DNA of 64,000 bases. Source: Apostichopus japonicus. Taxonomy: Eukaryota; Echinodermata; Holothuroidea; Aspidochirotida; Stichopodidae. The first letter of the stretch is position 1. Every line of letters starts with the position of its first letter. This document shows positions 30,802 to 47,000 of the stretch, piece by piece. Under the pieces are notes generated by a model. The model was not told where the DNA came from. It searched no databases and saw only the letters and a list, made by a program, of their open reading frames with translations. The translations under genes were made by a program, and so were the position numbers. The stretch is taken from assembly GCF_037975245.1 (NCBI RefSeq), contig NC_092563.1, positions 7,871,501-7,935,500 on the forward strand, written 5' to 3'.

Positions 30802-33800
30802 ATGGACTCGATTGCAACAGCGAAGGAGGTTAGGCAGACTTTCATTGACTTCTTTGTAAAGTACAAAGGATACGAACATGAATTTGTCCGTTCAAGCTTG
30901 GTCGTTCCTCTGGATGACCCGACACTGCTCTTTACTAATGCTGGAATGAATCAGGTAAGTGACGGTTGTAATATGTACTGTGAAGTCCTGTACATTTCTA
31001 ATCAAGCATATTGTTTACAGTTACTACTGTCTAAGCGCTTTAATATGTTTCCTTAATTAGTATTTGTTACCTTGCCCTCCTATACAGACAACGTCTCATT
31101 ACCTCACATTCATGTGTTATGATGTTATTAGAAGTATTTGTAATTCTCCTGTTCATTCTCCTTGTTCATGTTGGACATTAATAAATGTTACTAGGGTTTA
31201 TATACAGTTTTAACAGATAGATACAAGTATTTAGTCAGATAAACCAAACCTCAGTCGCTCATTTGCTAGAATGCAAACCATGTTCTGTGACGTTAAAGGT
31301 AGTCAGTATAGGCCCCAAATTATAGCATGTATAATTGCTAGAAAGTTTTCAAAAAGTACTTTCCTGGAAGTGTCTACTCTCCAAGTTGTTCTGAGACATT
31401 TTTAAGGCTGACTGAATGTCCCAGTGAGGAAAATTTCCTCAAAGGTTGTAATAAAAACGGTTTAAGAATTTTGCCAAAAGGTGACCATATTTAATATATG
31501 GTGAATATCTAGCATGGTGAATGGTGAATATCTAGCATATTTGGGGCCAATACAGCATACCTTCAAATACACTCTCTTTAATTAATATGCGTATCATTGT
31601 GAACAACCACAATTCTGTGACATAAGATAAAGTGACCTGACAAGACTTGAAAAAGCTTGAAAAAGTCTGAAGGTCAACCGAGTCTATAAAGAGGAAACAA
31701 ATAAAAAAATAAAAATTCCAAAAACAATCAGTCTTGTGCTTGATTATTTTCTAAGTAAAAGCTGCAAATATGGTTAAATGAGTATTTATACATGTGACGA
31801 GCTCTATGGAAACAATCTCAAAATATAGCTTGTTGTCTCAAATAAAACATTTTAAGGAAAACCCTACTTTGTTAAGAATCAATCCTGTGTTTGCCACTTT
31901 TGTACGGTCTAAAAAGATTGCCAAGGATTGTATGAATCAGTGTTGTGATTTCCATATGCAGTGCTTGTGTTGATGGCATGAATGATTCCTCTGAATAACC
32001 ATTTTACACGGGTAGACTTGTACAAGTCGCTAGTTTACAATACACTTTTCATTCTGTTGGCCTTGAGACTGAATGCATGTTAAGAATATTATCAATGTGC
32101 CATTGAATAAGGGGTTAATCAACGGTCTAGTGTGCGTTACTCACATGATTAATGCACTCCGGGTGTTAATGCTATCGCTGGATGCACTCAGGCGGATTAA
32201 CCCTGTTCATTCATACACTACCATTTGTGTGGGGGGAAAATCATAAAACAAAAAATTTTTGGTTACATATAACCAAAGATTTATTAAAGTGATGCCCCGT
32301 AATTTTACCGTGCGTTACTCACAGGATTAACCACGGTCAGCTGACCTGAATGGACCAATAGGATTTAGGAATCTTTACTAAGTATGAATGAACAGTTGTT
32401 AATTTTTTTTTTACATTATTTTCCTGTACTCCCATCTACTTTTAAGCTTCAAGGTCAAAAATTTTGCATATTTTCAGGGCAATTCTTTCATGTGCTACAT
32501 AGTAAACCATTAATGAGCAATGCCCATGACACAATCAATTTCCAAGATTAGCTGTATATTCTTGTGACTGAGGGGGTTGTAATATTCTCAAAGTTTCAAT
32601 ATTGATGCATACACAACCCATACCTCCCCTTTCCCCACCCCTTTCCACATACCTTTCCACACACCCATACCAAAGAAGCACAAAAAAGCATTAACATTTT
32701 TATCAAACCTTAGGAAACCTGTAGATGCATCTAACTCTGTCATTCAGATCAGAGTCGAATTTCCACAGCTAGAATGCCTAAATGTATTTTTTTTGCCCTT
32801 CTATTTTATTCACAGTACAAGCCCATTTTCTTGGGAACTGTCGATCCGAACAGTGATATGGCCAAATTGAAGCGAGCAGCCAATTCTCAGAAATGCATCA
32901 GAGCAGGTGGCAAGCACAACGACCTGGACGATGTCGGCAAGGATGTTTACCATCACACATTTTTTGAAATGTTGGGTAATTGGTCATTTGGCGATTATTT
33001 CAAGGTATGTATTCAAGTTGTTGCCATCAAGTGGCAAACCATGGCTCATTCATGTTGTAGCCATCAACTATATACCCTGGCTCATGAATGTTGTTGCCAT
33101 CAAGTCTTACATACCCTGGCTCATTCATGTTGTTGCCATCAAGTCATACATACACTGGCTCATTAATGTTGTTGCCATCAAGTCTTACATACCCTGGCTT
33201 ATTCATGTTGTTGCCATCAAGTCTTACATACCCTGGCTCATTAATGTTGTTGCCATCAAGTCATACATACTCTGGCTCATTAATGTTGCTGCCATCAACT
33301 CATACATACCCTGACTCATTCATGCTTTTGCCATCAAGTCAGACATACCCTGGCACATTCATGCTGTTGCTTTTGCTTCACTTGCTCATTTTCAAACATT
33401 TTTGGATTGGTTTGGAGGAATTTAAGGTCAGAAATGTACCTGGAGTAGTAATGGATAAGTGATATCACTGCATGTAGTCTGCAGTGCTCAGTTTGTAACA
33501 TTAATGTTAAGCAAACTAAGTAGTAACTGTGTCATCAATGGATACAGGATTGACGCGAGAATATGACATTTGCTGTCACACTAAACAAAACATTTTTTTT
33601 TCGTTTGTTTTTCTTTGCCCTCTTCATTAATTTGTTTTCAATTTTCGCCCCCATAGAAAGAGGCTTGTGCGATGGCTTGGGAGCTGCTCACCGTGGTGTA
33701 CAAGTTACCTGCAGATAGAATGTATGTGACATACTTCGGTGGCAATGAGAAAGCCGGTCTAGCTTCTGATGAAGAATGCAGACAGATATGGCTTGATCTA

Positions 33801-44000: not shown

Positions 44001-47000
44001 CTAATTACACCGTGTAAATTCTATTTTGAAAATTCAAATTGATTCTATTTAATGCAAGTCAGAAAATGGGAGTGACAACAATTTTGGTGATTTTCAAAAT
44101 TTTGATAATGTATTTGTATCTACAATTTTATTTGTGCTCAAAATTTCATAATGAACATTTAACTAAAAAGATCCCACTGACTAGATGATTTCATTGGCTT
44201 TGAAGGACTGTTTGACTGTTCCTCCCTGACCCCAACCCCCCAAACCCAACCCCTCCCACCTGCACCTCTTTCCCCTCTTACCTTGGTGTACTTAAGTGAT
44301 AAGTAAATTTGTCTGCCATATTACAGGGAGCGATGACTACGGGGCAAATAAAGGAAGCTGAAGAAATAGCCAACAGTGTGATCGAGAAGCGAGGCAAAGT
44401 TTATGCCAAAGACACCCCGCTGGCCCAAGCAAAGTCCATTCAGGGATTACGAGCAGTCTTTGACGAGGTCAGTATCCTGGTAGTTACATAAACATGACAT
44501 TAAGGAGAGGGGTTACTGGCAAGCACGAGGTCACAGGTCATATGTGATGAAGTCAGTATCATGGTTGTAAAATAAACATGACATAAAGGAGAGAGGTTAC
44601 AGGCAAGCCTGAGGTCACAGGTCATAGGTCATGAGGTCAGTATCACGGTAGCTAAATATGCATGACATAAAGGAGAGGGGTTACAGGGAAACCTGAGGTC
44701 ACAGGTCGTTTGTGATGAGGTCAGTGTCACGGTAGTTACATAAACATGACATAAAGGAAAGGGGTTACTGGTAAACATAGGTTACAGGCAAGCCTGAGGT
44801 CACAGGTCATATGTTATGAGGTCAGATTATTTCACTGGATTTGTGATTGATGTTAAGGATAAGCTCTGGGAATCAGTGTTTTAAGGGAATTCTTTGATGC
44901 AGTCAGTAATCTTTTAGATGCACTGAACCGAGTTAAGTGACAGGTTTGGCGACCATTTGTTAATGGTATCAAGCAACTGTTATGGTAATGTGTATTGTTT
45001 ATATCATTATCTGGTAGTTAAATGAAGTGCTTTATATAGCTTTTTTCAAAGTTAATTACCTTTTAGGGTACTTCACAGCCTAGTCATTATCAAATTGCAA
45101 AAGAGAAAAGAAGAGAAATTTGAAATTTCATCTTGGTTAAAGTATTGCTTCAAATGGAGGGACTTAAATGTGGTTATTGATATTGCTACGATGCCAGAAG
45201 ATATACAATGGATGTGCATGAAATGAAATATGGTTCTCCTTTTCTCTTCCGGTAGGTTTATCCTGATCCGGTTAGAGTATTATCCATTGGTATACCTGTT
45301 GAGGACCTGGTAGCCGATCCAGCAGGACCCGGTGCCATCATGACCTCTGTCGAGTTCTGTGGTGGAACGTAAGTACATCTGCACGGTTTGCATCATTTCA
45401 TAACCACATCACAGTGTGAATGAAAAACAGACTTGTTTTAAAGCCATATTTATTACCCCTAATTTTTGCCCTATTAAAATTGCTAGAAATTTTAAACGGT
45501 ATCTTCTATGAACAAAAGTTTATTCGTTGGGGACCGCCACACTATCATGTCTTTCCAATCTATGCTGGGACAATACCATGTCCCTCTTTTGCATATTGTT
45601 AGCAATTAGTTAACATTAGTTTTATCGTAGCATGTTTATCTCTTTGCCAAAGCTTACCATGCAGTATGTAAGAGTTTGTTCGTGCAAGTGCATGATCATT
45701 TAATCTTTGTTTTATCACAAGGTTTTTCTAGTTTAATAGTTGATGAGAACAGGAGATCACTGCATGACTGTTAGGTCATGTGCATGTTCCACTTGGAGTT
45801 TTTAGTCTATTTATTTCCAGTATAAATATAAATATTTATAAAAAGGACATAAAAAATTCAAAAAGTACATTACGAAAATTAAAGATTAAGTAGTAAAAAG
45901 TTCATTTAAACATACAATTTAAATTATGAATATTAGTAAAGAAAATTAAATATTGAAACACATTTACTGAATATTAGTTGATTGTTATGCAAGGCATAAT
46001 GGCTGTTAGTGTCATGAGAGAAAGTTTATCACTATGTGTTTAGATGTGTTTACATCGTAGATTTAATGACACTCACAGAACAATAGATGTGATCAGTATT
46101 CCACAGTATACCATAATGTTCCATCTACTTGCTCTGTTGTCATTTAACTCACTCGCTTCTGTGTCATTAGACATCTCCAAAACAGCGGAGACATTGGGAA
46201 GTTTGTCATAACGACAGAAGAGGCAATCGCTAAAGGAATCAGGAGGATCGTGGCCATCACCGGAGAAGATGCTGAAAAGGTGAGATCATTTTATTCTGGA
46301 CCTACTTACGGAATGGTAGATGGGGGTAGGTGTGTAGAAAGGGTGAGATCATTTTATTCTGGACCTACCTACAGTATGGTAGATGGCTGTAGGTGTGTAG
46401 ATAGGGTGAGATCTAATTTCATTATTGACCTTCCTACAGTATGGTAGATGGCTGTAAGTGTGTAGAAAGGGTGAGATCATTTTATTATTGACCTTCCTAC
46501 GGTATGGTAGATGGGGGTAGGTGTGTAGAAAGGGTGAGATCATTTTATTATTGACCTTCCTACGGTATGGTAGATGGGGGTAGGTGTGTAGAAAGGGTGA
46601 GATCATTTTATTATTGACCTTCCTACGGTATGGTAGATGGGGGTAGGTGTGTAGAAAGGGTGAGATCATTTTATTATTGACCTTCCTACGGTATGTTAGA
46701 TGGGGGTAGGTGTGTAGAAAGGGTGAGATCATTTTATTATTGACCTTCCTACGGTATGTTAAATGGGGGTAGGTGTGTAGAAAGGGTGAGATCATTTTAT
46801 TATTGACCTTCCTACGGTATGGTAGATGGGGGTAGGTGTGTAGAAAGGGTGAGATCATTTTATTATTGACCTTCTTACGGTATGGTAGATGGGGGTAGGT
46901 GTGTAGAAAGGGTGAGATCATTTTATTATTGACCTTCCTACGGTATGGTAGATGGGGGTAGGTGTGTAGATAGGGTGAGATCATTTTATTCTGGAGAAGA

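Follow-up and report, generated by a model that had tools for sequence, protein, structure and literature searches.

Mirage-like tandem arrays across four splice donors of an alanyl-tRNA synthetase gene, AARS1

Why should several introns of a single gene carry a tandem array at their 5' edge? The question is raised by AARS1, an alanyl-tRNA synthetase gene on the plus strand (30802-53497) of a 64,000-nucleotide stretch of DNA (hereafter the window), in which four arrays run across an exon-intron boundary and repeat the splice donor that they cross. Tandem repeats across exon-intron boundaries have been called 'mirages' in the Adh3 and globin genes of amphioxus (PMC3087553, cited here, like PMC3902484, from the part of its text available). 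We favor the possibility, with a probability of roughly 0.7, that the AARS1 arrays are minisatellites of the mirage type that have grown neutrally, with more tolerance at donors than at acceptors. The gene itself is in good order: a splice-site model combined with translation gives 20 coding exons and 973 amino acids without a frame break, the N-terminal 453 amino acids align to human cytoplasmic AlaRS (chain 4xem) with 762 bits, and in the splice model the exon ends fall precisely on 33004, 34876, 36694, 44467 and 46279, the five donors considered below.

Arrays were found with Tandem Repeats Finder (TRF) at a score threshold of 50. Those with a period of at least 12, once merged, number 23, of which 14 are at least 100 bp long and nine are shorter. 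All counts of arrays against splice sites refer to 32 introns, 19 from AARS1 and 13 from a TBC-domain gene upstream of it, the introns of a minus-strand WD40 gene being left out. The arrays tested are the 11 that are both intronic and at least 100 bp long; the arrays at 16275-16506, 16953-17068 and 63813-63929 fall outside modelled introns and were excluded, as were the nine arrays under 100 bp, five of which are in modelled introns. At four AARS1 donors the first unit of the array holds exon sequence (6 to 80 nt; Table 1) and the array therefore contains the donor. The units of these four arrays span 63-159 bp and their TRF scores run from 441 to 1255. An initial annotation of the locus had described units of 117, about 160, 84 and 63 bp that contain the exon's own donor, in agreement with the 117, 159, 84 and 63 bp that TRF returns at 34876, 36694, 44467 and 46279. 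It had also placed a 39 bp array within 15 nt of donor 33004, where TRF starts the array at intron position +7, and the recurrent exon-edge duplication that it proposed can be read directly from the units.

The same conclusion was reached by aligning each donor, from -25 to +25, to the intron downstream of it and expressing the score as a z value from 60 shuffles per donor. The four donor-spanning arrays gave z values of 30.0, 28.7, 13.2 and 19.2, and donor 33004 gave 8.1; among the other 27 donors, 26 were at or below 2.3. The only one of these above 4, that of AARS1 intron 8 (z 4.6), reflects a match to 16 nt of exon at a distance of 0.97 kb, within the array at 38832-39343. We considered whether degenerate older arrays are present at the 27 array-free donors and reject this, the single raised value being a short match that does not span the donor. 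That the 159 bp unit might be homologous to more of the exon, upstream of 36615, is no more than suggested (shuffle fraction 0.048) and is not claimed.

Table 1. Tandem arrays at splice sites of the two modelled genes, with two interior arrays of AARS1 for comparison
Array	Position	Strand	Relation to exon	Donor copies in register
39 bp x 9.4	33011-33370	+	from intron +7 after AARS1 exon 2 (end 33004); donor not included	
117 bp x 2.5	34829-35118	+	spans donor of AARS1 exon 4 (end 34876); 48 nt of exon in first unit	34993, 35112
159 bp x 3.7	36615-37210	+	spans donor of AARS1 exon 6 (end 36694); 80 nt of exon in first unit	36858, 37017, 37177
84 bp x 3.7	44461-44768	+	spans donor of AARS1 exon 14 (end 44467); 7 nt of exon in unit	44551, 44635, 44719, and 44820 past the TRF end
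63 bp x 11.3	46274-46990	+	spans donor of AARS1 exon 16 (end 46279); 6 nt of exon in unit	11, from 46342 to 46974
53/21 bp	48598-48710	+	stops 8 nt before acceptor of AARS1 exon 19	
57 bp x 2	6320-6431	+	stops 7 nt before an acceptor of the TBC-domain gene	
278 bp x 1.8	38832-39343	+	interior of AARS1 intron 8; comparison array, not at edge	
241/133 bp	41175-41885	+	interior of AARS1 intron 10; comparison array, not at edge	

Between them the four arrays hold 20 copies of a donor in register with the authentic one, and all 20 have kept GT. When scored with a leave-one-out matrix built from the 32 donors of the window, the copies range from 5.6 to 9.4; none scores higher than its authentic donor, six score the same and 14 score lower. 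If used as a donor, 18 of the 20 would introduce an in-frame stop, and the two that stay open, 46342 and 46405 in the 63 bp array, would add 21 and 42 amino acids in frame. Each of the five unit lengths (39, 117, 159, 84 and 63) can be divided by 3, which we considered as a sign of function and dismissed, given the stops and given that, because of indels, 13 of the 20 actual distances from exon to copy are not multiples of 3. Downstream donors, if chosen, would mostly give decay-prone transcripts and are likely to make poor spares. The 159 bp array additionally contains three in-frame open stretches of 75 nt that run from a TACAG to a donor copy (36784-36858, 36943-37017 and 37103-37177), each encoding a near-copy of an AARS1 segment. 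In the 117 bp array similarity continues beyond the TRF end to about 35160, as judged by eye from the alignment.

The arrays also bear the marks of turnover. Five copies of the 63 bp array, namely 4, 5, 6, 9 and 11, do not differ from one another; divergence is seen in copies 1-3 and in copy 12, which is the last and is partial. Of the 159 bp units, copies 2 and 3 share 98.1% identity, and each shares 90-92% with the exon copy. Homogenised inner copies and diverged edge copies are thus clear in the two arrays in which the pattern was judged, the 117 bp array, with three copies, and the 84 bp array, in whose alignment two neighbouring copies were fused, having been set aside for this purpose. 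Private substitutions or indels are present in copies of all four arrays. Both intronic copies in the 117 bp array have TGA at the position of a TGG codon in the exon, where human AARS1 likewise has Trp, and it follows that a mutated intronic copy was itself copied on. The copies, then, have turned over in concert, with those at the edges left out, a pattern also reported for amphioxus BflGb6.

How far the arrays are drawn to donors was assessed in two ways. In the first, arrays were placed at random positions within their own introns with an exon overhang of up to 80 nt, and a tolerance of 10 nt was allowed around donors. By this measure five of the 11 arrays begin at or across a donor where 1.53 are expected (P 0.01), and P is again 0.01 for donors and acceptors combined; the eight AARS1 arrays taken separately give P 0.0035 for donors (1.29 expected) and P 0.014 for both kinds of site. 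With an overhang of 20 nt the donor value becomes P 0.00027. It should be noted that this test is post hoc and was made in a window chosen for the feature. In the second, coverage was compared: four of 32 donors are within arrays, against 15.8% of intron bases (P 0.77), and for AARS1 alone the figures are four of 19 against 17.5% (P 0.43), so that no donor enrichment is seen. Array coverage downstream of donors is level, at 0.15 in the first 50 nt and 0.15 to 0.19 per 50 nt bin out to 300 nt. The five shorter arrays in modelled introns all lie more than 10 nt from any splice site, and none of the 13 donors of the TBC-domain gene has an array within 20 nt. The impression of the initial annotation that edge starts look non-random finds some post hoc support in where arrays start and none in how often they cover a donor, and attraction of arrays to donors is weakly supported.

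The picture at acceptors is different. None of the 32 acceptors is within an array (P 0.004 against the intron coverage of 15.8%), and arrays cover 0.05 of the 50 nt next to the acceptor and, in 50 nt bins out to 250 nt upstream of it, between 0.01 and 0.06. Over the two modelled genes taken together the arrays show an asymmetry: they reach and cross donors, yet end short of the acceptor AG, which is outside the aligned repeat in each of the two acceptor-side arrays (Table 1). Those two arrays are beyond the interval, 33005-46996, given in the initial annotation. Acceptor avoidance is the firmer pattern of the two, though the arrays are few.

A plausible scenario explaining these data begins with local tandem duplication inside introns, in which the duplicated unit would by chance take in an exon-intron boundary; expansion and homogenisation by unequal exchange or slippage would then follow. 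The 5'-most donor would be expected to win, being the sole donor joined to uninterrupted exon and never weaker than the register copies, and use of a downstream donor would mostly bring a premature stop and removal of the transcript by nonsense-mediated decay. Splicing is probably undisturbed for these reasons, with the 5'-most donor favored and aberrant transcripts decaying, and the unbroken AARS1 frame speaks for it too; the same two features would make a donor duplicated downstream of itself tolerable and an acceptor duplicated upstream of itself less so.

Several points weigh against this scenario. Within the 63 bp array, GT sites at 46690 and 46753, both out of register, score 9.2 against 8.8 for the authentic donor. 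The asymmetry is not significant by simple hand calculation, either as the number of arrays nearer to a donor (8 of 11) or as donors against acceptors within arrays (4 of 32 versus 0 of 32), the acceptor deficit rests on just 32 introns and 11 arrays, and any coding edge would be expected to show some deficit of arrays. Moreover, array starts cluster at donors beyond uniform placement (P 0.01, above), and the donor-spanning arrays have in common a strong G skew that random placement does not explain. Lastly, the mirage of amphioxus BflGb6 repeats the acceptor side (PMC3087553), and avoidance of acceptors is consequently not absolute. We regard the donor-tolerant, acceptor-averse bias as a modest hint. 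A stronger version, in which intronic minisatellites cross donors freely and rarely duplicate the acceptor AG because the first of several donors is the one used, while scanning by the spliceosome would run into the first acceptor, seems doubtful to us.

The skew just mentioned is one argument for the idea that donors themselves seed arrays, with a G-rich sense strand after the donor favoring R-loops or slipped structures, and breaks or re-replication duplicating the exon edge. Ranked by GC skew, the 11 arrays are headed by the four that span donors (0.24, 0.37, 0.34 and 0.53, against -0.29 to 0.18 for the rest), the intron is more G-skewed over its first 100 nt in these four cases than in the remaining 28 (post hoc P 0.009), and starts gather at donors in the post hoc placement test. 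Against this, coverage at donors is no higher than the intron background (4 of 32, P 0.77), the TBC-domain gene has no array near any of its 13 donors, the fifth donor-side array (33011) is C-skewed at -0.25, short-loop G-quadruplex motifs occur in just one of the five donor-side arrays, and the skew may be a result of the repeated unit and not its cause. Slippage or R-loop breakage at donors, one of the causes suggested in the initial annotation, has the skew on its side and the coverage against it, and we consider it unlikely. The further suggestion that a ladder of donors buffers or diversifies splicing, either by backing up the first donor or by giving regulated splice forms, some of them targeted for decay, is disfavored more strongly. 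It can draw on the GT kept in all 20 register copies, the six that equal the authentic donor, the in-frame extensions from 46342 and 46405 and the unit lengths divisible by 3; however, with stops in 18 of 20 copies a switch to a later donor would fail to restore the protein, 13 of 20 distances are out of frame, and buffering or diversification is highly improbable.

Two other explanations fare no better. The five identical 63 bp units would make copy number hard to assemble, and an assembly artefact, in the arrays themselves or in their copy numbers, might be suspected on that ground; the private substitutions and indels in all four arrays and the intact coding frame on either side of them argue the other way, and we think such an artefact very improbable. 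Intron gain through tandem duplication of an AG/GT site, the AGGT route raised by the initial annotation, has in its favor that the units hold AG/GT or GG/GT donors at the exon boundary and that the 75 nt open stretch from TACAG to a donor copy is present in three of three intronic copies of the 159 bp array. The TACAG there is preceded by a G-rich stretch without a pyrimidine tract, however, and neither an exon nor an intron has visibly been added: AARS1 keeps its reading frame and its first 453 amino acids are contiguous with human AARS1 across the junctions. We find intron gain here scarcely credible. Neutral, tolerated minisatellites of the mirage type are the reading that we retain.

The remaining contents of the window can be dealt with briefly. 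The initial annotation had set arrays at 38216 and 41175 apart as lying away from exon edges; the second is interior as described (41175-41885), and TRF calls no array at 38216, the one in that intron being at 38832-39343. Near 38216 two or three dispersed copies are visible, and scattered copies of a short sequence (about GCACAGCATCATTTAGCCTA) occur in AARS1 intron 8 at 38212-38330 and 39600-39660 without a TRF call. Intron 19 of AARS1 contains a reverse-transcriptase element (50127-52857, RVT_1 at 51627-52301) on the gene-sense strand, with open frames in multiple registers and, near 53100, a tail resembling TTATCTTATC; tblastn found no relative of its reverse transcriptase in the genome and viral contig collections searched. 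The TBC-domain gene, which we take to be TBC1D31, is on the plus strand upstream of AARS1, has a Pfam RabGAP-TBC match and was modelled with 14 exons over 1103-16040, any part 5' of 1103 being left out, and pieces of the WD40 gene occupy about 58-63 kb on the minus strand. A two-copy repeat family is present in inverse orientations at about 9140-9550 and 60970-61400; an exact 21-mer common to both copies (positions 9306 and 61184) has no exact match in the genome and viral contig collections searched. Six short words from repeats had no hit in the papers searched. The sole Rfam match is a tRNA at 12491-12563 (39.3 bits), where ARAGORN makes no call, and it is possibly a tRNA-derived repeat. 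G+C per 2 kb ranges from 0.32 to 0.43 across the window and the CpG observed/expected ratio is 0.47. Judging from its genes, the window is probably animal DNA.

If intronic minisatellites did follow so strong a bias, donor ladders, also in animals beyond amphioxus, would be natural experiments on how the choice is made among many near-identical donors in one transcript. One housekeeping gene with four such introns, and up to twelve register donors in one of them, offers a clean test of first-donor advantage. Were the donor-tolerant, acceptor-averse pattern to hold genome-wide, it would provide a measure of selection on splice sites. A host other than amphioxus would make mirages more widespread than they appear in the available text of PMC3087553 and PMC3902484.

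An origin in tandem arrays or in internal duplication has been credited to some introns (Rogers 1989, Zhuo 2007, Gao and Lynch 2009), reportedly including one of a potato RdRp gene (PMC4974935). The AARS1 arrays have in common with these cases a tandem copy of AG/GT sequence and differ in that they sit in existing introns, with no new intron seen. Intronic minisatellites in general resemble them in size, homogenisation and fractional copy number; the AARS1 units, unlike those, overlap coding sequence and a splice donor. Minisatellite-like repeats are also described in introns of an earthworm metallothionein gene, in the part of that report available. No paper on repeats in an alanyl-tRNA synthetase gene is among the literature matches listed, which comprise titles and abstract openings and lie mostly outside subscription papers.

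The closest parallel is with amphioxus. In its mirages AG/GT signals are present in many copies and splicing is apparently undisturbed, length changes between haplotypes and somatically, and a path to new introns has been proposed (PMC3087553). The mirage globin genes are BflGb6 and BflGb9 (PMC3087553, PMC3902484), to which the second report adds PGBD5 and, by citation, troponin C; unit sizes are 10-72 and 150-160 bp, with inner copies homogenised and edge copies excluded (PMC3087553). The AARS1 arrays at 34876, 36694, 44467 and 46279 are likewise minisatellite-sized, span the boundary and carry splice signals, and the 63 bp and 159 bp arrays have the same inner homogenisation and edge divergence. 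The arrays at 33011-33370, 6320-6431 and 48598-48710 adjoin a splice site only, and do not cross the boundary as a mirage does. A further difference is that a single gene here has four arrays across donors and none across an acceptor; in BflGb6 it is the acceptor side that is repeated. Mirages themselves have been described before, and the AARS1 arrays would appear, from their sequence, to be a dense new case in another gene.

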